NCBI GenBank assembly: GCA_002118135.1
Contig: BDIU01000136.1
Location: 1 to 64,000 of the forward strand
Source: Trebouxia sp. TZW2008
Taxonomy: Eukaryota; Chlorophyta; Trebouxiophyceae; Trebouxiales; Trebouxiaceae
Reading direction: 5' to 3'
DNA: 64,000 nt
Of this stretch, positions 423-24,608 are shown piece after piece. Every line of letters begins with the position of its first letter. The first letter of the stretch is position 1. The notes under the pieces were generated by a model, which worked only from the letters and a program-made list of their open reading frames with translations, made no database searches and was not told where the DNA came from. A program made the translations under genes and the position numbers.

Positions 423-3400
423 TATAAGGGCCCCAGTGATGAGGCTCAAGTCCTACGCCAAATCCGCGTGCTCCTGTTTGTGTACATCTTTGACAGTCAG
501 GAGAACACCTTTAAGACATGCCAGACGGCATACCTCTTCAGCTTCACAATGCTATGCTGGCACTAGATTCCATCGATGAAGGTCAGTGCAGCACTTTTTG
601 CCTGACGCACTGTATGCCTGACTGTATACCTGACGCAAACAACACTCCGTCTGCCATACTTCTGTCTTGCAGATCTGCCCACTGCATGGGTCTCGCTAGT
701 GCATTGCTCACTGCGCTGTGATGCAAGGCTGGAGACTGAAGCATATCAGGTGGTACAGCCTAGCACTGTCCTCAAGAAACACAGCATGGCATTGTGTTCC
801 AGGCCACAAAGCACTGCCTTGACTATAATGTGAACAAGCTTAGGCAGCAATGCCGGTGAAGTTGATTTCCTGCTGGCAGATCTCATAGCTCAAAAGATGA
901 CAGGCCGTGACTGATGTGCTTAATGGTGGCACATGAACATGCATGCTCTTCTGTGTTTGGAATCGTCTCATTGAGTCACACAACGCCAGAAGGTAAAGAG
1001 GTTCAAGCTCACCTGAAATTTTGTATTCGAGCTGTCACTGTACCGCTGCAGAGCTTTGAGGGCTGTTGCAATCGAAGCTGTTGAGAATCAAGACCTTGGC
1101 TGCTGTTTGTTACCGCTGTTTTGTAATCATTTGAGCACTGGAGCAATAAGATGTGCACATTGTCAACAGCTTTTGCGTCTGAATCTCCTTTTGAAGCTGT
1201 TAATCCAGCTTGTTGCATACTGCAAGCACAAGGGCTGGGAATATCGCAAATTTCAATGCAGTCTGATACAAGTCCAGCATATATCACTTTCCATTAAGTT
1301 AGTGATAGTGCTGAAACAGTTACGGTAATAATGGTAGTGGTAGTGTTAGTAATGGTCACAATGACAATAATCATAACAATGATAATGATAATGATAATGA
1401 TAATGATGATGATAATGTTAATGATAATGTTAACAATAATAAAAATAATAACAATAATAATAATAATAATAACAATAATATTGTTTACATCAATAATAAC
1501 AATAAAAGTAACAACAACAATGATGATGATGACGATAGTAAATTAACAGTAACAGTGGTAATAATAATAATAACAGCAATAGTAGTAGATTTCATGTGCT
1601 CATACAAGCATTTGCTTAGGTGGTGTGTATTTGGCCACAGGTGCTGACTGGTCTGTTTTGAACACATCTGGCAGCAGGCGACGCTGGCAGACTCAACAGG
1701 TGTATGGCATCAATGACATCTCTGAAGGGCAGCCAAACCTGTTCAAGATGGCGGGCAATGTGCTGGCTGACCCCACGCACATTGTGCAGGTGTCTTCTTC
1801 ACCCTCAAAGTGTTTTGCACGCGAAACAGTTCCCGTCTCTTCCCGTCTCTTTTTTTTATTACAATGTTGCGCCTCTTTGCTTTGCGTATTTTTCCAAAGT
1901 CACTTTGAACTTGAAGCAGCCAGCTAATGTCTATGATGTGTGTGCTTCTGTTTGGCCATCCATCTGCGGTGCAAGTGATCCCCTCAGAATGCAATGACAT
2001 CAACATTGGCAGCAGTGGCAGTTGCAATTGTAGCAGTGGCAGCATTGCCAGAGACAGACAGCGCAACTTTGAAGCAATGGCAGCATGAATATTGGCAGCA
2101 ATGACAATGACGTTCAAGGCTGTAACAACATTCAGGTTGCGGTGATAACGGCACTAATGCAGACAGACAGCAAGAGACAGTGACAGCCACAGTGCTGCCA
2201 GCAGCAACAGGAGCAGCAGTAAATGTGACAGCAAAGTCAGCAATGACCCACGGACAGACGCTGATGCTACCAAGTTGGACTCATGAGCCGCGTTTTGAGT
2301 CTCACAAATCCACATGCTATGCACACAATAAGCTCCAGCCAGATCAATGTCTGCTAAGCCATGTCATGCATTTGGTTGTGGGGCTGACTCGTACACAGCA
2401 CACAAATCAAGAGTGATTGCTTGTAGTTGCCATGAACCTGTACATGCAGCCATGTTTTTGCACCATTATAGCTGATTGCCAACCTTCTTGACGGCTGTGG
2501 CCTGCATGCTGCGCAGTTCTACGAGCTGGTGTTCCTCATCTGCACAGGCTATTTTGTGCTGGCATCCATTCTGCTGCTGGTCACAATGGTTTCAGCCTTC
2601 ATTGCCACCAGCACACTGTACACCAAAAGCACAGAGCTGTTCCAGTCTGTGAGACAGCCCCGCCTCATACCCTTAGTGCAAAAGGGCCGGGTCAGGTGTG
2701 CCTCCCCACCCCACACCTCAACTGCTTGCTTGCTTGCTAGCTCACTGACTCACTCACCCAATCACTCACCCAATCACTCACCCAACCACCCACCCACTTG
2801 CCCACCCATCCACCCACCCATCACTCATTCACTCACTCACTCACTCACTCACTCACTCACTCACTCACTCACTCACTCACTCACTCCCTCAGGTGTACAC
2901 TGAAGCAGTGCACGTCTAGAGCCGTTTGTGTCAAGAGTTTCATGGCTCACCTGATTGCTGAATCATTGTCTGTCATCGTCTGATGATTGTCAGCACTCAG
3001 TACTCAACAAAGTAGACTTCTTGTCCTCGTCTTCTACATCTTCTTGCTCTTCTTGATCTTCTTATCCTTCTTGTTCTTCTCCATTTTTGTGACGATGATA
3101 GTAATGATATAAACAACAATAAAATTAACACCAACAGTAATAACGATAAATTTAACATCAATCCCAATCACAATTGAGCCAAAGAAATGACAATAACAAT
3201 GATAGTCATGATGACAATAGTAATGATGATGATCATAGTAACCATAACATGAAAACTATAACATAAAATGAACTTGATAGACATACTTTGATTGCCATCT
3301 TATGGCAAACGCAATCAGACTTGTTATGTGGCTAAAGCATGTAAATAGTCTCCTCCTCCTCCTCCTCCTCCTCCTGATCATAATAACATATCAAGAGAAG

Positions 3401-6400
3401 TACTGCTGTTCTTGATGCAGGGCAGCATCGTCTCGCCAGTTGGTGCCTGGCGACATCGTTGTGGTGCTGCCGGGGCGGGCTCCCTGCGACCTGGTTCTGC
3501 TGCAAGGCAACTGCCTGGTGGAGCAGTCCACCCTCACTGGCGAGGTGACGTTGCAACATTGTGTAAATCTCATATTTGGGGCCTTTCCAGTATGTCATAG
3601 GCTGGCTGAACTTGATGAACGTGTACATTGTGTTAAACTCACATCTAGGGTCTTTCCAGTATGTCATAGACTGGCTGAACTTGATGAGCCTATACTCATT
3701 GCTACTGTTGCTCACACATCTGGGGTCTTTCCAGTATGTCATAGACTGGCCAGACTTGATGAGCCTTCACTCATTGCCACTGTTGCACACACATCTGGGG
3801 TCTTTCCAGTATGTCATACACTGGCTGAACTTGATGAGCCTATACTCATTGCCACTGTTGCACACGCAATCCGCCTTGTTTTCTGGCTAAAGCATGTGAA
3901 CCATTCCCCTCCTCAGCCAAACCTATGTCAAGCTCCAAAAGCACTATAGGCTGGCTTTGACTTGATTTCACATTTAAAGCCCTGGCTTTGCAGCCCATCT
4001 CTATGCCAAGATTCAGCAGTGCCAAATTTTGGATCACAATTCTACTGCATTTGTGAAACTTGACTCCAAAATCTGGCTGCTGTGCCCTGCCATGCATAGA
4101 CAGCCAGACAAAATTCAAAGCAGCTGTTTTGCGTGAGACCTTTGGCTGCTTTGACTCCTCGTGACGGTCTGCAAGCCTGCAGAGCAAAACGGACTCCTGA
4201 CCTATGCACTTGTCGTATATAAATTACACAAGTGGAGTTTGCAGGAGCATATAAGAGCAGCTATATGCGGGCTGGGGTACAGCCCGTCTTTGCTGTGCCA
4301 GTCCGTGTTGTAACGCCTGACGTCACACTCTCTGCAAGCATCTGCAAAATCTGGTGCATGCCAGATACATATTGTCGATGGTGAAGACAGTGCGATGCTG
4401 ATGGTGTTGCTGCCGCTTGCAGGCGGCTCAAGTGCGAAAATGCAGCTATGTGGCAGGACGCAAAGCAGACAATGCTGCATATGATCCAGACACTAATCAT
4501 GCGTGCACTGTCTATGCTGGCACTATAGTGCATCAGGTTGGTCATTCCTGCTTCTGCCATGACTCAAGCACTTGCACCAGCGAAACATCTCAGCCCTGTC
4601 AGATTTAGCATGCCTTTTCTGACTTTGCACCTGCGTCTGGGCCTTTGATGCCGAGTGACACTTGTGGTTTGCAAGTCAAGTCAGGTTGAGCATGCCTTTC
4701 CTGACTTTGCACACAAGTCTGGGCCTTTGACGACGAGTGGCGCTTGTGGTTTGCAAGTCAATTCAGATTTAGCATGCCTTTCCTGACTTTGCACCTGAGT
4801 CTGGGCCATTGACGACGAGTGGCACTTGTGTTTTGCTAGTCAAGGCTTGTTGCTATCAAAAGGAGTTGTTTTTGCCCACACACGCTTTGAGTCGCCAGAA
4901 TCCTTTTCATGTATTCTTATTGTCATTCTCATTTCGTTCTAGACGCATGCTAGGCAGGCTCAGCAGGCTCAGCTAGGTATGTACTGGAGCGATTAACTGT
5001 CTTCACCAGTTTGGTCCTGTGCTATCCTAAACTATGTAAGTGTGCATGTTGGAGATGTGTTCTGTCCTGCTGTCATGTTTGTCAAGCAACTGCAAGCTCG
5101 TTACCTGGCCTGCTGAACTCTCCTTTGATGTAAATGGCAGCCTTCATGCAGGCTGAGTGCAAGCATCACGTGAACCAATCAGTCATGGACCACTCATGGT
5201 TCAAGTGTGCGTGACAGCGTGCTGGTGGCTACTGACCCTTGCACATGATCTGAACTTTTTGACTGAACATTATGGTATGGAACTTGAAGGACATATTTTG
5301 ATTGCCATTTTATGGCATATGCAATCAGACTCGTCGTCTGGCTGAAGCATGTGAAAATCTCCTCCCCCTCCCTCCTCCTAACGTCAGTTGCACAATGACA
5401 CCTGCCCTTATCTGATCATCACATGTGAGCAAGCGTATGATTGGCTGTTGATCCATGCCCTGTTGCGATGGTGCAGCTTGCTCCTGTTATTTGTGATGCT
5501 CGGATAGACGCGCGGGTAGGATGTGTCTACAGGGCACTTGACTTGTTCATTCCTTCATTTACGCGCTGTCTAGGCAGGCACATGGACCCAACTAGGTATA
5601 TAGAGGAACAATCAGCTGTCATCATCTACTTGTATTTTTAGGTAGTTTGAGCCGTTCGAAGTGAATATGAATCTGATAGCTCATGGTACACAAATGTTTG
5701 CCAAGTGTCCCTGTGTTTACTCTTAGCTTGACTATACTTGGCTGTTGCGGATGTAGGTATGGAGCAATGACAACACAGATGAAGAGGTGCTTGGTATGGT
5801 GGTCAGAACCGGTGAGAGCTGCAATTGTGGTACATAGATATGCTTTGATGGCGCTGGTTGAGCTATTTTCATGTTGTCTAGTGTTTGCAGCATCAGAAAG
5901 GCCTGACTCATACTTGTCAGCTTGTCTACACTAATGCGCATTCTGTTAATGCAGTCCGTCGCTCTGACTGTTGACTGGCAAATGGACAGTTTCGGTTGAT
6001 TTGTCTGTGCAGTTATCTGTCTGTCTCTCTGTTTATCTGGTCATTCTTTCAGTCATCCTCATCTTCTTTCTGGGGCATCTGCCCACCTGTGTGCACATTT
6101 GACTCAGCCTTGCAGCTCACATGTTCTGATTCACATGCAACATCATCTGACCTATCGAGGTTTAGTCCCAAAGTTTTTCTATGTGTATGAGATTGTTGAC
6201 AACAAAAAAGAAACAATTACTGTCAACCTGTGCCTGGTCACAGGAAGTTTGATGAGCCTATCAGGCTTCAGGTCTTGGACATGGACTATAAATGTAATTG
6301 ATTGCTTGATTGATGTTGTTAGGGCTCAGATCTACTGTGGGAAGCATGCTGCGTCAGATTTTGGCGCCGGACAGTGATGGAGACCAGGCCCACGAGTTGC

Positions 6401-9400
6401 GCCTATTGGTGAACATGCCCACTTGAAAGCCCAGTGCAAATGTATTCCTCAAGCAGTCACCTACTAAACCGGTCATGCGAACTGAACATCTGGATCTTTT
6501 GCTCCTCAGCTCTGCTGCAGTTGATTGCAGTGGACATTTGGAGTTCCCTCAGCACCGCTTTACTTCAGCTTTTCAGCGTTGTTCTCCTTTCAGGGTTGCA
6601 TAAGTCATGACGTTGCCACGCCATCACCAGTTGTGCTCAAATTGGCAGTTGCTGTCTGTCAGATCCTGCTGCAGCTGTCTTTAGGGCTGAACCATCCTGC
6701 CTGAAAATCACACCGTAATCTAGCACTCTTGGACCAATCAGTTTCTTACAGCACCAGCACACAGTCACTCATCCATACTGGCAAGAGACAAGCTCATCAA
6801 TGCCTGCTCTTTCCAAAGTTGTATTGACTATCATGATTGGAAGCTTTTCCCCACTATCATTGCAATACTGTCATTACACTAGACATGACATGGTTGTCAT
6901 CACACTATGCATATATGATACTATACAGACATGATACCGTTGTCATCATACTGGTGTTGTTGACCTTGCCACAGCTACCAAGCATCTTTGTCATTCCTCA
7001 TCATCAGTCACATGCTGCAAATGCACAACCTCACTGCTGCATTGACTAATTGCAGGACTTATGGCGCTTCTATGGCTTTGCCCTCATCCTTCACCTCTTC
7101 ATCTTCCTGTTGGCAGTGGTACTGCAGAGGCTCACTGGCATGGGCACTCACCGCCAGACTGTGAAAGACATGGTGACGAGGGTTGGAGGAACCCTAATCG
7201 CTGCAGCCCCAATAGGAGGCCCCACTGTAGTCATCTTTGCCAATGCAGCCTGTGTCTCAAAGCTGAAGAAGAAGGGCATTGACGTGTTGCACATGGCGAA
7301 GCTGAGATTGGCGGCGGCTGTCAGCATTGTGTGCTTCGACAAGACTGGCACCTTGACAGGCAGTCAGGTATGCAGTCTGCTCTGATGAGCCACAGCTCTG
7401 GTCCATGGGGAAGGTCAGCCAAGCCTGCTGAGCCTGACTGCAGCCTGTCAGCATTGTGTGCTTTGACAAGACTGGCACCTTGACAGGCAGTCAGGTATGC
7501 AGTCTGCCCTGATGAGCCACAGCTCTGGTCCATGGGGAAGGTCAGCCAAGCCTGCTGAGCCTGACTGCAGCCTGTCAGCATTGTGTGCTTTGACAAGACT
7601 GGCACCTTGACAAGCAGTCAGGTATGCAGTCTGCTCTGATGAGCCACAGCTATTTTGACTCTGGTACATGGGCAAAGTCAGCCAAGCCTGCTGAGCCTGA
7701 CTGCAGCCTGTCAGCATTGTGTGCTTTGACAGGACTGGCAGCTTGACAGGCAGTCAGGTATGCAGTCTGCTCTGATGAGCCACAGCTATTTTCACTCTGG
7801 TACATGGGGAAAGTCAGCCAAGCCTGCTGAGCCTGACTTGAACCTGTCAGCAATCTGTCCTTTGACAAGACTGGCACCTTGACAGGGAGTCAGGTATGCA
7901 GTCTGCTATGATGAGCCACAGCTCTGGTCCATGGGGAAGGTCAGCCAAGCCTGCTGAGCCTGACTGCAGCCTGTCAGCATTGTGTGCTTTGACAAGACTG
8001 GCACCTTGACAGGCAGTCAGGTATGCAGTCTGCTCTGATGAGCCACAGCTATTTTGACTCTGGTACATGGGGAAAGTCAGCCAAGCCTGCTGAGCCTGAC
8101 TTCAACCTGCCAGCATTGTGTGCTTCGACAAGACCGGCACCTTGACGGGCAGTCAGGTATGCAGTCTGCTCTGATTAGCCACAGCTATCGTGACTCTTGG
8201 TACATGGGGAAGGTCAGGCAAGCCTGCTGAGCCTGACTGCAACCTGTCAGCAGTTTGTGCTTCGACAAGACTGGCACCTTGACAGGCAGTCAGGTATGCA
8301 CTCAGCTCTGATGAGCCACAGCTATCGTGACTCTGGTACATGGGGAAGGTCAGCCAAGCCTGCTGAGCCTAACCGCCATCTGTCAGCATTTTGTGCTTTG
8401 ACAAGACTGGCACCTTTGCAGGCAGTCAAAAGCAAGCTTTGCCCCTGTCGGAGACGATCAACGCGCACCCTGGGTATGCAATAGTGGCAAGGACTGCCAA
8501 GCACAAGCAACATTCACAGCGTGTTCTGACAATTTTGACGTATTGACAGGTCAATTGGTTAAGATTAGCACATGACCAAACTGGTTGGAGACAATTGCTT
8601 GCTTCTGTACATACCTAGCTGGGCCTGCTGAGCCTGCCTAGCCCATATTTATCATGAAATGAGTGAATGACAGTTCATCAGTGCGGGTACTGCATGGATT
8701 GAAGTGTTCTGCATGCAGCCTGAGTTTCATGGGATGGTACCAGTCGAAGGCGGCATGCTGGGCAACTGTCAGCGCACAGCTGTGCAATGGCCGATGCGAC
8801 TGAAGCAGGCAGCTGCTCTGTGCCACAGCCTGAATCTGGTGGCCAAACGTCAGGTGGCTGGAGACTTGGCGGATCAACAGGCCTTCCAAGCTGTTGAGGC
8901 TCAATTTCTGGTGATGTCTGCTCTTATCATTTGTCATGCAGCATCATGACATCATGCATTATGCATGATAATGACTTCACTCGCTGTTGACCGTGCCAAG
9001 TCACAGGCCTTCCAAGCTGTTGAGGCCCAACTCCTGGTCAAGATTGCACTTGCGACACATCATCACGAAAATCGTCAACTCAATAACAACAATAACAGTT
9101 GTGATTACACATTCCAGCATATGCTGCTAGGTGTGTGTGGCACAAGTCCTATCTCGCCAGGCAGGCTTGTCTTGAGCGTCGCAGCAAGGACGCCTGATGT
9201 CTGACTCAATGCTTCATAGGATGCAGATCTTCATCAGCTGTTGACACCATGTTGATCGTGCCAAGTCACAGGCCTTCCAAGCTGATGAGGCCCAACTCCT
9301 GGTCAAGATTGCACTCACGACACATCGTCATGAAAGTAAATTCAATGGTCCATAGGATGCAGATCTTTATCAGCATCTGACATGGTGTCAGCATTCACAG

Positions 9401-12400
9401 GAGCGAGATCTTGTGTCGCTGCCACTTCGGCGGAGGTCAGGCATTCAGACTATCAAGGTGGTGAAGCGATTTGAGTTTGATGCCAGTCTGATGAGGTCAG
9501 GCGTGGTGGCTTTTGACAGAGACAGACCAGGCAGTCCGCTCCTGCTGTTTGTCAGGGGGGCACCATCCAGAGTTCAGAGCTTAGTCAGGACGGGTTTCCT
9601 GCCCCCCAACACTGATAAGGTATGTGGGAACCGTGACTGTCAAGATACGAAGAATCAGTCACAGCAGGACTCCTGCAATTTTGTCACCATCTAGACTTCA
9701 CGGTCGTCTTAGAAGCATACTTTCTGCCTCCGACACTCTCAGGAGCATTGCCATTGTCACCATCCAGAGTCCAATCGCGACAGGCTTTTTGCCTCAGTGT
9801 GATCAGGTGCACAGTTGTCAGCATCCAGAATCTGAGGCCTAGTAAGGGCAGGTCTCCTGCTGTTCAACAGAGTTGCGCAATACGCTGATTTCTTGTTGCC
9901 AATACGTAAACATGCGCCGTATCGTGCTCCAATGGAACATTGCTTTCCAACACTGATCAGGCCCGACACCATTGTCACGTTCCAGAGAGTCAAGTCAGAG
10001 CAGGTTTCTTGTCTTGCAATGCTGATAGGTGCACTGCCATTGTCATTTCGATGATTGTGAATGTCTGTGACTGATTGTTGTGGTGACTCACCTGAAAGCA
10101 TGTTGATGACCTTGGTCAAGCTCAAGAATATGGGGCCCTCAGTCAATCTATTGGGCAACTACCACAAGACTTGCTCACCTAGCAAACATTGGCTGCAGGT
10201 CATAGCAGAGTATGCTAGTCAGAGCTTCAGGCTAATGGCTGTAGCGGTGGGCATGCTGAAAGGCATGGGGCCCTCCGAGTTGCGTGCTGTGAGCCAGCAA
10301 CAGGCCGAGGCTTGCTGCAGCCACATGGACTTTTTGGGGCTGGTTGTGCTGTCCAATCAGCTGCATCCAGCCTCTGCAGACACCATCCGGGAGCTTCAGG
10401 AAAGGTGTGCAAGGCTTGTGCAAAACCTCATCCTGCACTGCTTTGCTGTTGACTGTTACTCCACCATGCTTGCTCACAAGCTTGTTTCAGCGCCCTGTGC
10501 ATAGGCTCTTTTCCTCATGTCTTGAGACGTTCCCGAGCTGCTGCACAGCTTTCACAAATTACGCATCAGGTGCAATCAATTGTACGACAAGCTCGGACTC
10601 TTTGAGATTCAGGGGGGGAAAACCTTTGGACAGGTCTGAAGATGACTCCTCAAACCGGATTCGAACCAGCGACCTGCTTACGAGCACCACATGCGCAACC
10701 CCCCCCTCCCCCCCAAGGTTTGTGGGTGCTGAAGTCTGCTTAAAAGTCTGCTTGTTGCAGAGGGGGCAACAGGACAATGATGGTAACAGGGGATCAGCAC
10801 CACACAGCCATTGCAGTCGCCAAGGCTGTCGGCATCATCCCTAAAGACAGGCCAATCCTTGTGATCCAAGCCAATTCAGAGAAGAGCGCGCATTCTCCAG
10901 GCATCCAAACGCATCCTGGAGCACGACAAGAGCAAATTCCTCTGATGCTGACTGCTGCTCCTGGCTTTTGCATGCGTGGGTCGTCCCTCCCAAACACAAG
11001 CAGTAGGGCATACGGTGAAGGACAGACTGTGAAAGACAGCCACGGCCTCTCAGGGCCACTGCCAGCCCAACTGCCTGAGCTCTCCTGGCCGTTGTTGACT
11101 CAAAGCACAGCGCCAGTGTCACATGTCCCTGCCTATGGAGATGAAGACAATGATGCCAGTAGCGGCAGCGGGTTGCAAAGGGCCAGTCTGGAGTGTGAGC
11201 TGAGCTTTGAGCTGGGTTCTGAAGCGCAACCAGAGCAATGCAGCGCGCAGCAAGCTCTCACGCATCTGGCACAGGTGACTGATCCTTTCTACTTAGGGTA
11301 CAGTGATCTCTTGATATAATGACTGCATTGGTTCCCAAGAAAAATGTCCTTACATAGAAATGTCCTTACTCAGAAGTACCACTCTAGTCAGAGTGCAGTG
11401 CTTGGTTCCCAGTTGCACTGTCCTTATACAGAGAATCCTTATATCAAGAGATTACTGTACTACCTGTATTGGTTGTTGCAAATCACTGCAGTATGTCTGG
11501 CAACCGCAATCATTGCAAATTCTTTCTGCCAGAGCAGCACAGGAGTATCCCACTTTGATAGTTGCAATGCATTGTAGCTGGCAGCTCTGCTCACTTTACC
11601 GCCCCTTGCCCATTTAGAACAGGCTTTCACCATTTCTGGTTGTCGTAAGGCGATGCATTGTGTCCAACTGCTACAGTCTCTGTGTCTTTTGTCCTGCCAC
11701 TGCAGCACCAAACCGTCACCCTCTGGGGCATTGTTGCAACGCAGTATATCTGGCAGCCAGCTTTGACGTCTGCTCTGTCTGTCTTCTGTCTGTCACTTTA
11801 GCAAGAAGTTTTATAGCCAAGCAGGAGCTTGTATATAGGGTTAAACAGACATGCGCTTATGCATTGCCCTTGGGCTGCCTCTGTGGACAGAGGCTCCCAT
11901 TATGATGCCTATCGGCGTAGACTTTTTCCCCCAATTGGCACATGCCGGTGTCAGACTTGAAGACTGGTGACCAGTTGCGAGAGTGTAGTCTCATTCTGCC
12001 TACCTATGCTGTACAGGGTTTAGCTGCATGCTGTGAGACTGGTCCAGCCTACAAGCAGATGTTGACAGCTGCTGACTAGCGAATATCTTATTCTGCCTAC
12101 CTGTGCTGTACAGGGTCCAGCTACATGTTGTGTGACTGGTCCAGCCTTCCAGCAGATCTGAAGACTGGTGACCGATTGCGAGAGTGTAGTCTCATTCTGC
12201 CTACCTATGTTGTACAGGGTCCAGCTACATGTTGTGTGACTGGTCCAGCCTTCCAGCAGATCTGAAGACTGGTGACCAATTGCGAGAGTGTAGTCTCATT
12301 CTGCCTGCCTATGTTGTACAGGGTTCAGCCACATGCTGTGTGACTGGTCCAGCCTTTGAGCAGATGTTGAAAGCTGGTGATGAAGTCATGTTGGAGGCAG

Positions 12401-15008
12401 TGATGGGCAGTGTGGCGGTGTTTGCTCGCATGCGCAGCCAGCAGAAGGCTGAAGTCATGGACCTGCTGGGCCACAGGGGGCTGTACCAGTTGGCAGGCCA
12501 TACACGCCGCCATATTCAAGTACGTCTGTGTCCACCTCCCTCCCACATTCAATATTATTCATGTAAAACATCACTGTGTCAATGCCAGCATGAATGCCAG
12601 GTGTGCATGGCCTTAAGCCCTTATCCGCCAGATAAAACCACCCCCCCCCCCCCCACCCCCCCNNCCCCCAAAAAAACCCCCCCCCCCCCCCCCAGCCCCA
12701 ACTGAAAACCAGATCCTTCACAGCACCTGCACCAGCTGGCTGGTCATCAGTGCAGACACATTCTTCCAAGGCCCAACCTCCAAACCCCTTGCCCCTCCTT
12801 CAACTCCATGTGTTGTGCTGCACTGTCATATTCCTGTAAGGCCCATACCCCCCCACCGCCAAACATGCTAGATGTTTTGCTGCAGCTATAACTGACAAGC
12901 CATGAGCGCTGATTCCAAGACTCATGCCTCTCCCAACCCTCCTCACATCAATTTCCCTTCCCATCATGCTGCATGGTTTGCTGACCTTCAGTGCTGACAT
13001 TCCTGTGCTAGCCCCTGCCCGCTTCCCACACCCATAAGAATTGATACATCACGATCACACATGCTGTGCTGTATGCCCGCTTCCCACATCCAACAGGATC
13101 TATTCATCCTCATGATACTTATCCCTGCTGAAGATGCTACATCATCATCATAGCCATTATTACATCGTGATGATTACATATGCCAGCTTAGATGCTAAAT
13201 GTGTCTGGTACAACACCTTGTTTGCCAGGCCACCCAAATCGCCCCCCCCCCCCCCCCNNTTGGCAGGCCACCCAAATCGCCCCCCCCCCCCTCCGTCCTG
13301 CTGCCATATGTGTTGCTGACTTGTACCAGCTGGCAGGCCATGAGCGCCAACACCCCCCTGTGAGGCCCAACACCACTCAACATACAATTGCAGAGGAATG
13401 CGGCCAAAAGCTGAGACAAGAGTTACTGGGCAAGATCGCAGATGCGCAAAAATGAGCTCATTAGAAATCAGACATCAACCGCTCACTGTGGTCTGCGTGT
13501 GGCAAATGCTGATGCCAACTACTGCCTTGTCCTGATGACACGACGCTTGATGTGCTGCTCTAGTCTTGAAGCCTGTGCAGCCTTGCCTCATGGGACAATA
13601 CCACCTTTGAGGCCTAGCAGAGCAAGCTGGCCTGTCAAGTCAGTACTTGTGCTGAACACTATGCAGGAAGCTGTGTCTGTGTTGCGACTGTCACTGCATT
13701 TCATTTGTCCAGTGGCTCTTGTTTGCTACATGGTGATTGACATTGCCTAACGCAACAATTCTGGTGGCACTGCCGTTGTCATTGTCTGTGCTGTGATCTT
13801 TTGACAACACCCACTGTCATGGTTGCTGCTGTTTTTGTTGCTGTCGTCAGCGTCACCAACATCATCAAAAGCATGATCAAGGTCACTGGGCATGAGCACC
13901 TTGCATGTGATTGCTGCTGCCCGCCACTGACATTTGCGCGTCAGCAATGACACCTAGCCATGCTTGCAGGGCCTAGGTGCTACCTGCATGTACTGTGGTG
14001 ATGGGCTGAATGATCTGCTAGCATTGGCAGCAGCGGATGTGGGTATGGCAGTGGGCCACAGTCATGCATCAGCGGCTGCCGCCATCTGCGACGTGCACTC
14101 ATCTGCTGCAGGTAAACACAATATCAGTCATAAGTAACTGCAATGGCTAATTACTAAATGTGATTACCAATGTAATTGCCAAATGTAATTACTAATTTCT
14201 CATTGTGGTCAGGTGTATGTCATGATGTACAATAACAATGATGGCCTCATATGATTATGAATGCATGTTGAAGGGCAACTGTCAGGTGTGAGTAGCTCAG
14301 GGTGTTGCTTGCTGAGCCTGGTTGCCTCAGGTGTCATTGCTGCAGGTGGTATGCGTTCTGTTTGATTGCCCATTCGACAGTGTCATCAGAGGTCAACACG
14401 TTCCTTTGTTTAGTCCCAGACATCAGCGGGACAATCGCCTTTTCTACAAGGCAAACACTGATCAGCTGCCTTTGGTTGCCAGACACATGTACCTGTGCTT
14501 TCGAGCCAGAAAGTCCGATGAGTCACATCTGGCTCCCCACCCCGGACGGTAAATTCTATTGATTGATTGATATGCTGCTGTCTGGTCAGAATGTAAATGC
14601 TAGCACAATTGACATGAGAGTAGTAGCCTGGTGTAAAGGACACCATCTGGAGGTAGCGATGGTGCGATTTACAGCAGTTGCAAAACACTCGGTCTTGTCA
14701 TGCAGAGTGCTAGACAATGCAAACCATGCGAACTTGACTGGCTCATCAAAATGTGGGTCAGCATGCTGCGTATCCTGGAGAAGCAGTCAACAAGCATGAG
14801 GCACCTGTCAGAAGCACAGTCCTGCAACTTGTGCTTGTTTCCGGGGCATTTGCTGAGGTCATGTCGCTGCAGGCGTTGTGAGTGTGCTGCGTGAGGCGCG
14901 CGCAACCCAAGCCATCAAGCTGTCAGCTATCAAGGTGCAGTGTGTGCATGCGTGCTTGCATGCATGCATGCGTGGGTATATGTATGTGTACATGTATATG
15001 TGTATGTG

Positions 15009-15067
<59 letters not shown>

Positions 15068-17412
15068 GATACGTATGTGTATCAACACTGCTGCATGGAT
15101 GTCAAATGTCGTCTGCATTGATGCCAGATGTCAAATGTCGTCTTGACTGACGCCTGCGGCTTGGCGCTCTCTAGCTGCTTACCTGCACGCCAGGATGCCA
15201 TGACTGCCTTGAGCGTTGAGCCCATCTGGCTGTGCACAACAGGTTCCAGCATATCCTGTTCCAATTGTGACGCTCAGTATATGCACCTTCTAGAGTAGCA
15301 TGTGGGCACCTTTGAAGAAAGATGGGGCCGCCTGACAGATTTTTGGAATCAGGCAGCAGCACTGTTGCAAATGCACTGTGCGCTGCAAGGCAACATCAAG
15401 CTGATGAAGCTTGCTACATAACACGATTGCCTTGTGATGTGACTTGCCAAGACGCATTGCTAAGTGGCATAGTAATCTGCATCTGTCACAATGATTTGGC
15501 TGTTTGCTGTATGCCATGTCATATGACTTGATAGTTGATACCCAGTGCTAGATGACACAGAACTCCTGAAGTTTCAAGATGATTTGGCTGCTTGCAGTAC
15601 ATGGTGGCGTATACGCTGTTGGTGGCTGTTGCTGTGAACAGCCTGTGGGTTCGTCAAGGAGTCAACTTTTCGGTGGTGCAGGTCGGGCTCTCAATCCAGT
15701 TGCTGCATATGACTTGACTGGTCCAACTGCATTGTGATCCTGGCCCCTCTGCATTTGGCATGGAATTTCTGGCGTTAAGAATGGTATGGAGCCAAATGAC
15801 GATGTTCAAGAAAGCAATGATGACAATACTGTTGATGAGCATGCCCGTCCCACAGGGTCTTCCTTAAATGCACAATAGTGGCCATACGATCTAAACCTTA
15901 CAATTGCTGCCCTAATGTCAAAAACTCCATCCCCCCCAATACAAAAGATTCAGACAAGTTTGAGTGTGAAACTGCTGAATTCCTAACCCACAACCTAGCG
16001 TTCACAAGTACACTACTTATAAGGAAGAACGTCTTGCAGCTGGCGTCAAGTCTAGCGGAAGATTTGGCCTGACTCAAGACTGTCTCTGCAACACATATGC
16101 CATGTGTTTGCAGCAGAGACTTGTCTCTGCATCCTGCATTGCTGTCTTCTGATCTCTGTTGGGGCGCCTTTGGTTCCTCTGCTGCAGAGTTTGTGAAGCT
16201 TGGCTGTCAAACTGCTGGTAAATATATGACAGCTAGACAGCAGGATTGTGACTATGGCTGGCAGTGCCATTGCCTGCTACACAAGTGTCAAGCAACATGA
16301 CCCAACTAAGCTATCTGAGTGCAGGCAAGCCTGCCAGACTGGCAGGCTCGACACTTGTTTCATGTGCGGTGAAGCGGTATTTCTGGCCACAAAGTGTTGA
16401 CATCAAGCTGGCGCTGAGCCTGACTTTGCCCACCTGTACATATGTGCGCATGTTGCCTGTGTTTGTGTGTATCATTCATGGCTTCATCGAACGACTATAA
16501 TTCAGGAATTGAACCCTATGTCATTAAACAGTAAGCCCTCAATATAGGAACCTTACTGATTGCTCGTTACTGCAGAGATCATCAGTAGAGATTGTGGCGA
16601 TCACCATTGGTATTGTGGTGAGCGTAAGACCAGCAGCATCAAGTTTGACCCCGTTTCGGCCTGCACAGGACTTGTGCACCCTTCAAAATTATCTCACCAC
16701 CGCCTTCAGTGCAGTCGTGGCCTTTGCAGCATACTGTTTTGCCATTTTCTTCATTGAGCATCAGCGGTGGTACTCTGGTGGTAACACCAGCAATGTCAAG
16801 GTACGCATGCAGGCCACTGCAGCATGCCTTGCACATTGCCATTCTATCTGTGACCTAAGCTTAGAGCTACAGCTTCAATATGCAGATTGCTTGGCACACA
16901 GCACTCAGCATGTTGGTGCGCGTCTGCACACCACCCAACATGAACAGTAAGCTGTGAAGCGGATTATATGCATGTATCACCAAGCTGCAGCCCCCCAACA
17001 TGGCACGCTAATCAGCTGCTTGTTACTGCATGGCTACTGATACCCACGTGATACTGATGTGCAGAATCCCTTGGTGACGATGATGTGGGTGGGCATCCTG
17101 AACAGCACCTTGCTACCTACAGTCAACTTTGCCATCGACAAATATGGGTTTTGTCAGAAGTACAGCTGGGCAGAAGTGGCATTGTTCTCAGTGTATAGTA
17201 TCTTCTGTATGCTGTGCTGTATGCTCAGCCCAGCTTGGTTTGACGTATTGGATGTCTTTCAATTCTATGCTCTACCATTCTCATTTGGGTGGAAGCTGTA
17301 CTTGCTGGGCGTGGCGGGTATGATGGGCTACTGGAACGTGCAGATCCTTGGTGTTACGTGGGCAAGGTCTCGTCAACGGCGCCGACTTCGCCCAACAAAC
17401 GTCCTTGTGTAA
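423..17412 (+). CDS. P5-type (P5B-like) cation-transporting ATPase, multi-exon gene
   Basis: P-type ATPase of the P5 family; known P5B members (ATP13A2, Ypk9) sit in lysosome or vacuole membranes and move polyamines or cations. Exons whose phases join cleanly: about 1641-1789, 2472-2695, 3421-3544, 4423-4536, 5757-5811, 6323-6408, 7056-7367, 8719-8910, 9401-9619, 10199-10404, 10761-11274, 12322-12519, 13970-14111, 14873-14934, 15598-15681, 16576-16800, 17065-17412. Landmarks in order: a YGIND segment (N-terminal domain), LVPGDIVVV and STLTGE (actuator), FDKTGTLTGSQ (phosphorylation site), MMVTGDQ, YCGDGLND (hinge), and C-terminal membrane helices ending at the 17412 stop. An earlier exon at about 423 (YKGPSDEAQVLRQIRV) is plausible, but its donor is unclear because the frame meets a stop near 564. 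The link between 3544 and 4423 lacks the expected PVxK segment, so an exon may be missing. The true start is not resolved. The TM4 motif is atypical (see findings). Confidence 0.88.
1330..1590. repeat. AT-rich (AATGAT/AATAAC)n simple-sequence tract
   Basis: About 260 bp of imperfect TAATGATAATGATAATG and AATAATAATAACAAT repeats in an early ATPase intron. Reading frames through it are artefacts of the repeat. Confidence 0.95.
2745..2892. repeat. (CACT)n / (CCCA)n microsatellite
   Basis: Imperfect CACC(C/A)AAT units pass into a long pure CACT run at about 2824-2886, within the ATPase intron after the exon ending 2695. Apparent Thr-His-Ser-Leu repeat peptides are products of the microsatellite. 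Confidence 0.95.
3578..3865. repeat. Four-unit intronic tandem repeat (about 69-75 bp)
   Basis: Units starting CTTTCCAGTATGTCATA recur at about 3581, 3650, 3725 and 3800, each followed by GACTGGCTGAACTTGATGAG and TCATTGCCACTGTTGCACAC. The array starts about 35 bp after donor 3545. Unlike other arrays in the gene, it does not contain recognisable exon sequence. A TTCCAG acceptor-like core is repeated in each unit. Confidence 0.9.
7056..7367 (+). other. ATPase exon carrying TM4 and the phosphorylation motif
   Basis: Phase-0 exon of 104 codons between acceptor TGCAG (ends 7055) and donor GTATGC (7368). It begins DLWRFYGFALILH, crosses two hydrophobic segments and reaches VCFDKTGTLTGSQ; the aspartyl-phosphate residue is encoded at 7338-7340. 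The TM4 unwinding motif, PPALP in P5B and PPELP in P5A pumps, is PIGGP here (7209-7223), in a same-length alignment leading to KLKKKGI. The exon joins in phase to 8719 (PEFHGMVPVEGG), giving a P5-like order around the phosphorylation site. Its last 51 nt are the founder-like copy of the tandem array that follows. Confidence 0.85.
7317..8430 (+). repeat. Nine-copy tandem array of the DKTGTLT exon end with splice sites
   Basis: Units of 127-137 bp repeat the last 51 nt of the phosphorylation exon plus intron sequence. The 51-nt segments are at 7317-7367 (functional exon end), 7444-7494, 7571-7621, 7707-7757, 7843-7893, 7970-8020, 8106-8156, 8243-8293 and 8379-8429. Copies 2, 3, 4 and 6 keep a CTGCAG acceptor; copies 1 to 8 keep the GGTATGC donor. 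Each intact cassette is 17 codons, phase 0 at both ends, reading PVSIVCFDKTGTLTGSQ. Copy 4 encodes DRTGSLTGSQ, copy 3 DKTGTLTSSQ, and copy 9 DKTGTFAGSQ with no donor directly after it. The spacer also repeats (CTCTGATGAGCCACAGCT and GGTCAGCCAAGCCTGCTGAG). Confidence 0.95.
8719..9310 (+). repeat. Nucleotide-binding-domain exon 8719-8910 with two downstream partial copies
   Basis: The exon 8719-8910 encodes PEFHGMVPVEGG through AAALCHSLNLVAKRQVAGD and ends QAFQAVEAQFL before donor GTGATG. Its 3' edge with donor-like GTCAAG recurs at about 8998-9046 (QAFQAVEAQLL) and about 9263-9311 (QAFQADEAQLL), each preceded by related intron sequence. Phase 0 joins the real exon to the next at 9401 (ERDLVSLPLRRRSG). 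The copies lack an obvious function and look like duplications of the exon-intron junction. Confidence 0.85.
9550..10050 (+). repeat. Degenerate tandem copies of an ATPase exon 3' edge
   Basis: The exon 9401-9619 ends with GCACCATCCAGAGTTCAGAG...CTGATAAG and donor GTATGT. Diverged versions of this edge follow in the intron at about 9681-9745, 9757-9815, 9818-9880 and 9940-10035. They share CACCATCCAGAG-like and ACTGATCAGGT-like blocks. The copies have stops and frameshifts. The next real exon starts at 10199 (VIAEYASQSFRLMAVAVG), in phase 0. Confidence 0.7.
10761..11274 (+). other. ATPase exon with MMVTGD motif and low-complexity insertion
   Basis: The junction codon is split AG|A between donor 10405 and acceptor CAG ending 10760, giving ELQERGGNRTMMVTGDQ. 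That is the conserved TVMVTGDN segment of the P domain, continuing AIAVAKAVGIIP. After about residue 35 the exon runs into some 130 residues rich in Ser, Pro, Gln and Glu with no recognisable fold, ending HLAQ at donor GTGACT. The insertion lies where P5 ATPases vary in length between TGD and the TGPAFE segment of the next exon (12322). Confidence 0.85.
11301..11457. mobile_element. 157-bp pogo/Tc1-mariner-like MITE with TA target duplications
   Basis: The element is flanked by TA on both sides (11299-11300 and 11458-11459). The left end reads CAGTGATCTCTTGATATAAT and the right end, read in reverse complement, CAGTAATCTCTTGATATAAG, so the terminal inverted repeats match over about 20 bp with one or two differences. 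Internal sequence has subrepeats (TGTCCTTA, GGTTCCCA) and no coding capacity. CAGT ends, TA duplication and a GATATAA-type inner repeat are typical of pogo/Tigger-type MITEs. It lies in the ATPase intron after 11274. Confidence 0.82.
11883..11932. repeat. Dispersed repeat family D, copy 1
   Basis: GGACAGAGGCTCCCATTATG, then ATGCCTATCGGCGTAGACTT, matches 48680-48730 (GAGACAGAGGCTCCTGCTAT, then GATGCCTGACACCGCAGACT). Both copies lie in introns of different genes. They are too short and diverged to classify. Confidence 0.6.
11990..12330 (+). repeat. Four-copy tandem repeat of an exon 5' edge and its acceptor
   Basis: The acceptor TTGTACAG of exon 12322-12519 and the following coding bases (GSATCCVTGPAFEQ) are preceded by diverged copies whose GTACAGGG motifs start at 12011, 12108 and 12212, with the true one at 12318. 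Spacing is 97-106 bp. Upstream copies read CCxTGPAF-like but soon meet stops. Here the acceptor side is duplicated, whereas most arrays in this gene copy the donor side. Confidence 0.88.
12322..12519 (+). other. ATPase exon, P-domain TGPAFE to FARM segment
   Basis: Phase-0 exon encoding CCVTGPAFEQMLKAG, then GSVAVFARMRSQQKAEVMDLL, corresponding to the conserved TG-x-x-F and VFARM-P-x-QK segments before the hinge. It ends HTRRHIQ at donor GTACGT, about 13 residues longer than expected before the GLGATCMYCGDG exon (13970). An earlier donor cannot be excluded. A diverged copy of its 3' edge (TTGTACCAGCTGGCAGGCCA) lies near 13320. Confidence 0.8.
12638..13292. other. Poly-C tracts with two 2-base unknowns (NN)
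   Basis: Unknown bases occur at 12663-12664 and 13258-13259, both inside long homopolymer C tracts. The second is flanked on both sides by near-identical sequence (CAGGCCACCCAAATCGCC), so the gap may be a collapsed or duplicated assembly join. The intron between 12519 and 13970 otherwise holds diverged exon-edge copies and no coding sequence I recognise. Confidence 0.8.
13970..14111 (+). other. ATPase hinge exon with GDGLND motif
   Basis: Exon of 142 nt from acceptor CTTGCAG to donor GTAAAC, phase 0 in and phase 1 out. It encodes GLGATCMYCGDGLNDLLAL followed by AAADVGMAVGHSHASAAAA, the universal P-type hinge motif GDGxND with its downstream helix. The split glycine codon G|GC joins it to 14873 (VVSVLREARATQAIKLSAIK), equivalent to the VPNVIREGRAALVTS segment entering TM5 in P5B pumps. 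Confidence 0.9.
14500..14562. repeat. Dispersed repeat family C, copy 1
   Basis: CCTGTGCTTTCGAGCC-AGAAAGTCCGATGAGTCACATCTGGCT...AAATTCT is closely matched at 47243-47306 (CCTGTGCTTTCAGCCTGAAAG, then CCGATGAGTCACATCTGGCT). The two copies sit in introns of different genes in the same orientation. No terminal repeats were recognised. Confidence 0.75.
14960..15068. repeat. (GTATAT)n microsatellite
   Basis: Alternating TGCATGCA/TGTATG sequence passes into a nearly pure GTATAT hexamer run at about 15008-15066, in the ATPase intron after donor 14935. Confidence 0.95.
16576..17412 (+). other. Last two ATPase exons: TM7-TM10 and stop
   Basis: Exon 16576-16800 encodes RSSVEIVAITIGIVVSVRP, then a hydrophobic helix and HQRWYSGG, which parallels the QPWY loop of P5B ATPases. 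It joins in phase 0 to 17065-17412 (NPLVTMMWVGILNSTLLPTV onward). That final exon contains three hydrophobic segments and ends in a basic tail RSRQRRRLRPTNVLV with a TAA stop. Confidence 0.85.
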
Positions 17413-22583: not shown

Positions 22584-24608
22584 CTAGCCTAGAGGATTGA
22601 ACAAGGTCTGCTGCCTCTTCAATTCAGCAGGTTGCCTTGCCTTTGCTGCAGGCTTCTGCGGAGACGCAAGCGCCTTTCTATCTGTCTGATTTCTGCTGGG
22701 TTCGTTAACAGATTGCTCTAAATGCTCTTTCTCATTGGGCTGTGTCAATGGGCTTTTCTCCTTGCTAGCAGCGCTGGATTCTTGGCCAGACCTTGAATCT
22801 TTGTGAGTGACTGTAGGCTTGTCTGCCAAAGCTACAGGCTGTGGCGCCAGCCTTGACTCAGAAACTGCTGCTGGCTTTTGGACGGGACTTGAACCCTGGA
22901 CCTCAGTTTTAGACTCGCCTATTTTGCCAGTATCGACTGTTTGCGGGTCAGATGATGGCACTGCTGGCTGTTGAAGGGCAATTGAACCCTGGACCTGAGG
23001 CCGAGACACATCTCCTATAACACTGTCACCTGTGTGCTTCTCTGACAATGGAATTGGCTCAGAACTGGCACTGGCTTGTGAGCAATCAGTGACTGCAGGA
23101 CCGGGAGAGACTTGACTCACATCTTGCATCTTGCCTGATGCGGTGTCTGTCAGTGGGTCTCTGCCACTGACAGTCGTCTCGCTGTCAGCTGGTGCAACAG
23201 CAGGAGTGCTTGTCTGCACCGCTTCAGAGCTCAGCATGCCTTCATGCCTAGTCTCACTCTGTGACAAGGGTGATGCTGCGAGTGACTGTTGACCCTCAGC
23301 CTGTTGTTGTCTCTGTTCTTGCGCTGCCTCCTGTCGTCTACTGCCAACAGCAAGAGTCTGGGTTGACGATCTTGCTGACAACTCCCTGTTGTTGCTGCCA
23401 CTGGCTTCCTGTGTTGAGACAGGCCACTGCAAAAGAGACCCAGCGGCTGCAGCAGCAGTTAGGACCTTGCTGCTTTCTGGGACTGTGTGATGCTGGCCCT
23501 GGTCAGGAACAGATTCAGCAGAGTTGCTGTCACTGAGCTGATCACTGCCACTGGGCGATGTGGCAGACGCTTGCAATCCAGCTGATGCAGCAGTATGAGG
23601 CTGATGCTCACTGGAGATATCTACTGCTGAAGCAGTGATTCTTGGGGGGGGTGGTGGCGGCGCCGCAGCTGTGGCAGGTGATGATCCACTATTACTATAA
23701 CCAGCAACGCTGTCAGCAGTGGCATCAGTATCAGCATCTGTAGGAGCTGCTTGATGTGCTTCCGCTGAACCTGAACTCTGCTGGGAACTTGAGGGTGCAG
23801 CAGCTGTGTTGAGCTGTGTAGTGAAGGCATCTTTGGGCGCATCAACATCGCCTGATGTGGCCGCCCCTGATGAGGTTCTGACATCTGCCACGCTTTCAGA
23901 AGCCTGCAGCTGATTAGCAGACTGCTCCTCACCTGCTTCAGTGTGCCTAGTGGACTCAGGGGCAGCAGCAGCGTCCTGATCTGCACTCCTTCGGGTGGGG
24001 GTTTCACTCTGACTGGCAGGGGCATCAGCAGCACTATACACGGCTTCTGCAGACTGCCTAGTGTGTGGCGCAGCATCTGGTTGCTGTGCTGGCGCTTGAG
24101 CTTGACCACTTTTTGTATGGGCCTGAGTGTGGGAACTCTGATCTAGTGCTGGCTGAGGTGCTGCTGATGCTGTTGGCAGTGCTTGCCTAGGCAAGTCCTT
24201 GCCTGTCCTGACTGACGTTTGTGAAGATACAGATGCCTGTGGTGACGCTAGAAGCTGTGCAGGCTCAGAGGCTTCTTCAGAGGGATGAGCTTTGTCCATC
24301 TCGTGCCCAGACTGAGTCGTCTTGCTGCGTATGCTTGGCTTAGCAGTTGGCTGCTGACTGAGCTCAGGTTGCTGTTGGGTGCCAGAGGCAGGGTTGTTGG
24401 GGCTTGAGGGGGCGGCAGGGGGGTGAGAGGGGGTTGGGGCTGCCAGCACAATCGGTGTTGAGGAAGTGGAAGGGGTGGCTGATGACGCCCCTGGGATGGA
24501 GGAAGGTGCTGCTGCTGCAGCTTTTGTAGAAGGTGCAGCAGCAGCTGGTGGGGCAGGAAGGGCAAAGCGAGCCACCTGACTGCCCTTCAGCAGCCCTACC
24601 ATGCCAGC
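22584..24608 (-). other. Long Ser/Ala/Gln/Pro-rich C-terminal exon of the RME-8/GRV2 gene
   Basis: Single open exon of about 675 codons. Acceptor ATATAG (24609-24610) gives AGMVGLLKGSQVARFALPAP, which matches the AGVAGLIE...LTYALTAPPP end of plant GRV2. Joining it after FLPAGADRL/S restores the family C-terminus in phase 0. The remaining 640 or so residues are low-complexity Ser, Ala, Gln, Thr and Pro with no predicted fold and probably disordered. The residues before the stop are basic (KARQPAELKRQQTLFNPLG). Viewed alone it looks like an independent gene starting at 24602; the homology at its start argues it is an exon. Confidence 0.85.

Follow-up and report, generated by a model that had tools for sequence, protein, structure and literature searches.

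The question raised by this locus is why a P-type ATPase gene of the green alga Trebouxia sp. TZW2008 holds nine copies of the segment encoding its catalytic motif DKTGTLT, and whether the additional copies are read into protein or lie as decoys inside an intron. The window, by which we mean the whole 64,000-nucleotide stretch of DNA analysed, contains the repeats as the original prediction described them: nine 51-nt copies were found at 7317-8429, in register and head to tail, with successive spacings of 127, 127, 136, 136, 127, 136, 137 and 136, and none of the segments has an insertion or deletion. The TRF scores of the array (1439-1777, with 87 and 90% matches in two rows spanning 1.1 kb) are far above chance, and the segments encode (A/P)VSIVCFDKTGTLTGSQ and variants of it. 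It had further been claimed that copies 2, 3, 4 and 6 have both an AG and a GT, 51 nt and phase 0, and that copy 4 supplies DRTGSLT; these sites are indeed intact and the translation agrees. Along the array, the donor GT is kept in copies 1-8 and gone in copy 9, and AG is missing before copies 5, 7, 8 and 9. In the following lines, a slash marks a splice site.

7056 to 7367, plus strand: exon whose last part is the catalytic segment AVSIVCFDKTGTLTGSQ; copy 1 is this real exon end (spliced alignment).
7317 to 8429, plus strand: tandem array in which nine 51-nt segments derived from the exon alternate with eight 76-86-nt spacers (self-comparison, TRF).
7368 to 8718, plus strand: modelled intron of 1351 nt containing copies 2-9, CAG/GTATGC ... 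TGCATGCAG/CCTG.
8719 to 8910, plus strand: next exon, beginning PEFHGMVPVEGG... (spliced alignment).
Starting at 7317, plus strand: copy 1, GT present, real exon end (51-nt segment listing, from which copies 2-9 also come, together with splice-site scoring).
7444 to 7494, plus strand: copy 2, AG and GT present.
7571 to 7621, plus strand: copy 3, AG and GT present, one residue altered (G to S).
7707 to 7757, plus strand: copy 4, AG and GT present, DRTGSLT.
7843 to 7893, plus strand: copy 5, without AG, GT present.
7970 to 8020, plus strand: copy 6, AG and GT present, cassette exactly that of copy 2.
8106 to 8156, plus strand: copy 7, without AG, GT present.
8243 to 8293, plus strand: copy 8, without AG, GT present.
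8379 to 8429, plus strand: copy 9, without AG and without GT.
8623 to 8639, plus strand: candidate degenerate spacer remnant (GCCTGCTGAGCCTGCCT) in the otherwise unique intron tail (local score 29; none of 200 mononucleotide shuffles scored as high).

After copy 9, an open frame continues over 8429-8480 (GSQKQALPLSETINAHPG) up to a GGGTATGC, which looks like an insertion within the last repeat or could be a further exon-like piece.

Donor and acceptor use was assigned from homology by spliced alignment, using the genome sequence alone, and the gene hosting the array was modelled in this way.

518 to 15684, plus strand: P5B-type (ATP13A2-like) P-type ATPase gene, modelled part, 16 exons, 901 aa (spliced model, domain and structure matches).

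The model starts at 518, with the 5' end of the gene before that position outside it, and the contig begins at base 1. The spliced protein matched PF00122 (E 8e-20) and PF00702 (E 4e-11), the E1-E2 ATPase and haloacid-dehalogenase-like domains, and its closest solved structures were P5B pumps (P5B-ATPase 7op5, E 3e-51; ATP13A2, E 2e-50). It also contains DKTGTLT, VTGD and GDGLND, and we take DKTGTLT, TGD and GDGxND to be the catalytic motifs expected of a P-type ATPase. Domains, nearest structures and motifs all agree, and judged by them the host gene is a P5B-type P-type ATPase. Its real junction at the array, as placed by alignment to homologues, joins 7367 to 8719 in phase 0, and the joined exons of the model read without a stop across all 901 codons when 7368-8718 is spliced out together with the array. 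Two further observations concern the surrounding sequence: a poly-C run with undetermined bases (X in the translations) makes the assembly uncertain at 12640-12700, and an open frame of 674 aa with a high content of Ala, Ser, Gln and Pro lies on the minus strand at 22584-24608.

The homologues of the concatenated exons carry a single motif. The best 29 of the 120 listed were Trebouxia predicted proteins, followed by Chlamydomonas and Volvox, and the top one had 47% identity over 98% of the query. Exactly one DKTGTL-like motif was present in 33 of the 34 homologous proteins examined and none in the other, with a second motif in 0 of 34; among the Trebouxia proteins, 28 of 29 had exactly one and one had none. 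In 26 of these 28 motif-bearing proteins, the motif is directly joined to the PELHGM-like next conserved segment. The other two, P0016 and P0025, have different sequence after the motif and are probably unspliced predictions running on past it. Because the 16-exon model without the array is free of stops and the homologues have one motif, copies 2-9 most likely lie in one 1351-nt intron as leftover duplicates.

The best surviving alternative is that copies 2, 3, 4 and 6 are in-frame alternative micro-exons, used singly or in series, and would give pumps with at least two DKTG motifs. Their intact AG and GT, their 51-nt length and their phase 0 speak for this, as does the fact that the sequence at their start is that of the true acceptor which this intron has in paralogues on contigs C23 and C50. 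Judged by sequence the cassettes appear usable, since their donors and acceptors score within the range of real sites: the donors of copies 2-7 equal the real donor (71st percentile of real donors), the donor of copy 8 scores higher (87th), and the acceptors of copies 2, 3, 4 and 6 stand at the 21st percentile of real sites, with the true acceptor at the 50th. However, AG is missing before four of the eight additional copies, no homologue of the 34 has two motifs, and reading past the donors of copies 1-8 meets a stop at the sixth codon. Serial use would require 76-85-nt introns between neighbouring cassettes, whereas the shortest of 70 modelled introns has 199 nt, in a set that introns short enough to sit within one homology match would escape. 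Nor was purifying selection on the cassettes detected, either in cassette-versus-spacer divergence (mismatch of 0.075 in the cassette part and 0.076 in the spacer part of copies 2-8) or in the ratio of nonsynonymous to synonymous changes in copies 2-9, which was 13:6 against 118:35 (3.4:1) for random mutation (P 0.26, with 19 changes in all). The coding constraint on copies that would mark an array of alternative or mutually exclusive exons was thus not found. On this evidence, micro-exons seem unlikely, and we prefer the reading of copies 2-9 as decoys, which appears far more likely than isoforms. The original prediction had offered both a decoy array driving intron growth and a source of pump isoforms with more than one phosphorylation motif. 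The first gained ground through the lack of detectable constraint, the stop-free model without the array, and the longer echo-bearing introns and similar cases in other genes described below; the second lost it through the same lack of constraint, the 34 homologues and the short inter-cassette introns. What speaks against the decoy reading is that several of the decoys seem hardly inferior to real sites, and yet splicing would have to ignore them.

How the decoys may have arisen is suggested by the array itself. We consider it very probable that the nine-fold array is a tandem amplification of one exon's 3' end with the adjoining intron, and part of a widespread process in which duplications across junctions are hidden by splicing. 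In a first step, a local duplication would have taken the exon tail, the donor and intron sequence, and probably reached past the acceptor of this intron into the beginning of the next exon, to judge from a 12-nt match. The starts of copies 2, 3, 4 and 6 read GACTGCAG/CCTG, and outside the cassettes this 12-mer turned up in the loci scanned just at the true acceptor of this intron, in C23, in C50 and in C432, which duplicates C50; TGCAG by itself is found at 0.45% of intron positions. As the 12-mer is the acceptor of this very intron in paralogues, the founding unit was likeliest the exon tail, a short form of the intron and the first bases of the next exon. It counts against this explanation that such a unit implies an intron of 76-86 nt, below every one of the 70 modelled.

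Enlargement by unequal exchange or slippage would have followed, including one duplication of a three-unit block. The unit lengths of copies 2-4 (127, 136, 136) recur in copies 5-7 (127, 136, 137), and 7396-7695 is 96% identical to 7795-8094 over 300 nt, so that copies 2-4 and 5-7 look like a block duplicated as a whole. The outer donor would still have been spliced to the outer acceptor, leaving the protein unchanged while the copies drifted, in line with the lack of constraint, and the intron would have grown. A selective loss of the cassette acceptors was considered and rejected: the G/A column of the acceptor is among the most variable and splits 4:4 between G and A, the copies share their history, and the direction of change is ambiguous, with either AG or AA as the original. 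No counterpart of the spacer was found in the C119 or C23 intron, where scores fell within the shuffle range, and an Rfam scan gave no match.

The same intron could be compared across P5B loci. This Trebouxia genome has a greatly expanded set of P5B-like ATPase genes, with 49 matches on 21 contigs, although the weakest matches could come from P-type ATPases of another kind. Contigs C50 and C432 (loci L020, L021, L023 and L024) share an identical stretch of 3,755 bases and probably represent a duplicated or haplotype contig. The comparison covered 11 of the 20 distinct P5B loci, namely those with both exons in the retrieved DNA. Because the intron occupies the same place in the readable paralogues, the focal case is, on this comparison, one of intron growth and not of intron gain. 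Arrays were present at six of the 11 loci and differed in kind or sequence: donor copies in C132, acceptor copies in C119 (two), C23 (four), C338 (one) and C392 (six, counted with the acceptor placed a few bases off), and both kinds in C39 (two donor and two acceptor copies). The intron was free of arrays in the other five (C144, C275, C50, C369 and C191). It measured 489-1351 nt with arrays and 269-503 nt without (P 0.004). Contigs C428, C40 and C169 show extra partial P5B matches beside the main exons, which may be further exon echoes, a term we use for copies of an exon's own ends.

Echoes were then counted at the 70 introns of four genes modelled by spliced alignment to homologues: 29 in a homologue of RME-8/DNAJC13, 15 in the focal P5B gene, and 11 and 15 in its paralogues on C119 and C23. 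Junctions with a score below 30 or a margin below 2.5 had been excluded before this number was reached, and very short introns may have been missed; lengths ranged from 199 to 1450 nt, with a median of 594. Windows of 60 nt at each junction were compared with 1500 nt on each side, the opposite directions serving as control. Copies of acceptor junctions numbered 42 upstream (at 19 of 70 acceptors) and two downstream, and copies of donor junctions 22 downstream (at 12 of 70 donors) and none upstream. The copies thus span both sides of an existing splice junction, with 5'-end copies upstream and 3'-end copies downstream of the real exon. The two copies in the wrong direction seem to come from exons where two copies compete for exon status, and choosing the second copy would remove both. 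At least one junction-spanning copy of the intron's own exon ends is carried by 29 of the 70 introns. Outside the focal intron, the window contains the following examples:

9003 to 9051 and 9268 to 9303, plus strand: two echoes of the 3' end of exon 8719-8910 (junction and duplication scan).
11987 to 12247, plus strand: three echoes, all lying upstream of exon 12322-12519, whose 5' end they copy, AG intact in 3/3 (junction scan).
25249 to 54216, minus strand: RME-8/DNAJC13 (GRV2) homologue, an ordinary conserved gene with echoes at many exons (tblastn, spliced alignment, scan).
35871 to 36154, minus strand: three downstream echoes of the RME-8 exon end at 36278, GT intact in 1/3 (junction scan).
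39203 to 39949, minus strand: six upstream echoes of the RME-8 exon starting at 39088 (GYF region), AG intact in 6/6 (junction scan, tblastn, TRF).
45245 to 45591, minus strand: three upstream echoes of the RME-8 exon starting at 45123, AG intact in 2/3 (junction scan, tblastn).

Searches by tblastn with the RME-8 proteins of Trebouxia and Myrmecia gave the same picture of one exon piece repeated side by side, and at the exon at about 39089 four extra upstream copies were visible at the protein level and six at the DNA level. Large tandem repeats reported by TRF (139, 226, 151 and 188 bp units) overlap or adjoin RME-8 exons at 39178-39807, 44608-45580 and 48810-49201. At 58464-59081, a stretch resembling part of a C2-domain exon, labelled by eye, appears twice in the list of open reading frames, apparently another exon echo. 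Introns with echoes were longer than those without (median 697 versus 531, P 0.011), and intron length correlated with the number of echoes over the 70 introns (rho 0.37, P 0.0015). In the four genes, 17-24% of intron bases fall in local duplicates. The focal array is contiguous, but many of the exon-touching duplications do not appear to be textbook contiguous tandem copies, because the aligned part reaches 80% of the offset in just 13 of 36, which counts against a simple account. Two exon-exon rows had been set aside in the scan that listed the window's echoes.

The process does not seem confined to P5B genes or to the window, as judged from kinesin and chaperonin samples that rest on HMM matches and not on spliced models. 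The kinesin sample comprised loci on 20 contigs (78,899 bases), with 59 of 146 matches used and 43 stop-free HMM exons, and omits at least two matches inside the retrieved loci. It has 37 local duplications, 15 of which touch a stop-free exon (12 exons in total); nine are 5'-end copies upstream, five are 3'-end copies downstream, and one classed as internal also lies downstream. The chaperonin sample comprised four genes (22,759 bases) and 29 of 77 matches, six with an internal stop. Six of eight local duplications touch one of these 29 HMM exons, and three of eight do so, one by just 16 nt, when the six stop-containing matches are excluded. The kinesins behave in the same way and the chaperonins do so more weakly, and duplication across splice junctions appears pervasive in the genes sampled. 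In general terms, duplications that cross a junction would survive under the cover of splicing and be seen as echoes, those of exon starts lying upstream and those of exon ends downstream; the splice dinucleotides of these echoes would decay at about the neutral rate.

These counts also bear on the remaining explanations. An ordinary minisatellite might overlap one exon end by chance, with no general process behind it, and the window does hold many other tandem repeats. However, chance overlap fits poorly with junction copies of the intron's own exon ends in 29 of 70 introns and with exon-touching copies in kinesin and chaperonin genes as well, and we consider it very unlikely. An assembly artefact made by collapsed or mis-joined long reads is less probable again: tandem arrays are error-prone and C50 and C432 share an identical stretch, but the copies differ from each other at many sites, and arrays that vary in unit and sequence are found at many loci on different contigs, almost always on the side expected from duplication. 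The least credible explanation is a mobile intron-like element, since, although introners have been reported in green algae (PMC9860276), the arrays are built from their own host gene's sequence, and outside this locus, among the candidates listed by the search, only the exon part of the query (1-48 of 144) was matched, at the paralogues' own exons. In the genome of 68.5 Mb and 527 contigs, the spacer had no match outside this locus among the candidates listed, and a dispersed repeat or introner was rejected, with no near-identical copies at unrelated loci among these candidates.

If amplification hidden by splicing is accepted as the most probable account, it may be asked whether duplication is tolerated at junctions or directed to them. 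The survival of decoy sites is about neutral: AG is intact in 37 of 42 acceptor copies (simulated P 0.07 for an excess) and GT in 18 of 22 donor copies (P 0.49), where the remaining dinucleotides of these alignments give 0.78 and 0.79, respectively. Preferential removal or keeping of decoy sites by selection was rejected on these figures. Junctions were crossed more often than by chance, by 36 of 63 duplications against 10.9 expected when the unit is taken as the aligned length or 18.3 when it is taken as the offset; among duplications at least 85% identical, 12 of 22 did so, where 4.0 (P 0.00015) or 6.5 (P 0.009) were expected. This excess was computed on the present-day map and may be inflated by conserved exon copies and masked low-complexity intron sequence. 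Simple duplication anywhere followed by hiding through splicing does not predict it. It is conceivable, although we find it rather doubtful, that local duplication is directed to splice junctions and not just tolerated there, so that introns repeatedly copy their own exon borders and the spliceosome must choose the true sites among near-identical decoys. Transcription- or splicing-linked breakage and RNA-templated repair are examples of routes by which this might happen.

Related events are known one at a time. In the potato RdRp gene, a single tandem genomic duplication across an intron-exon boundary made a new, RNA-verified intron (PMC4974935). As far as the available text of that paper goes, the likeness is that the duplicated block spans one intron-exon boundary and carries splice signals; the Trebouxia copies, known here from the genome, differ in being multiple, in lying within an existing intron and in occurring at 29 of 70 introns. 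Intron gain of the Rogers type, by duplication of an AGGT exonic segment, is described in the accessible portions of three sources for ATP2A1 and fission yeast genes (PMC4974935, PMC3443670, PMC3629103), and a review and a fission yeast paper treat tandem duplication as a route of intron gain (PMC3443670, PMC3629103). There too an exonic tandem repeat gives splice sites and turns intronic, and the protein can remain unchanged. However, those segments consist of exon sequence alone and give rise to a new intron, whereas the Trebouxia unit contains a junction that was already there and lengthens an intron already present. In Chlamydomonas and Volvox, tandem repeats are enriched around the junctions of introns and exons (PMC3887541), which fits the Trebouxia pattern of repeats concentrated near junctions of green-algal introns, but the accessible part of that paper treats repeat density and motifs and mentions neither copied exon ends nor copied splice sites. 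Mutually exclusive exon arrays (PMC6071210) resemble the focal array in having near-identical exon-like segments in one gene; as presented in the available text, those are whole coding exons from tandem exon duplication, whereas the Trebouxia copies are exon fragments with no detectable coding constraint. Among the open-licence papers listed by literature searches, none was found to describe copies of exon ends with decoy splice sites across a genome. For Trebouxia nuclear introns, the listings consisted chiefly of papers on organelle genomes and the Asterochloris genome paper, whose main text contains 0 occurrences of the word tandem. The array therefore appears to be a striking member of a kind of event known singly, and apparently pervasive here.

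Junction-crossing duplications have so far been single cases in the literature seen, and here they are found at 29 of 70 introns, in ordinary genes and with most decoy sites intact. For gene prediction in lichen algae, this is a warning that an echo can be taken as an exon, which has apparently happened twice in the present model. The echoes amount to many natural competition experiments between real and decoy sites that have nearly the same flanks and differ mainly in position. They would allow a test of whether the spliceosome chooses its sites by exon definition, by outermost position or by kinetics, and they would also allow the growth of introns to be measured.
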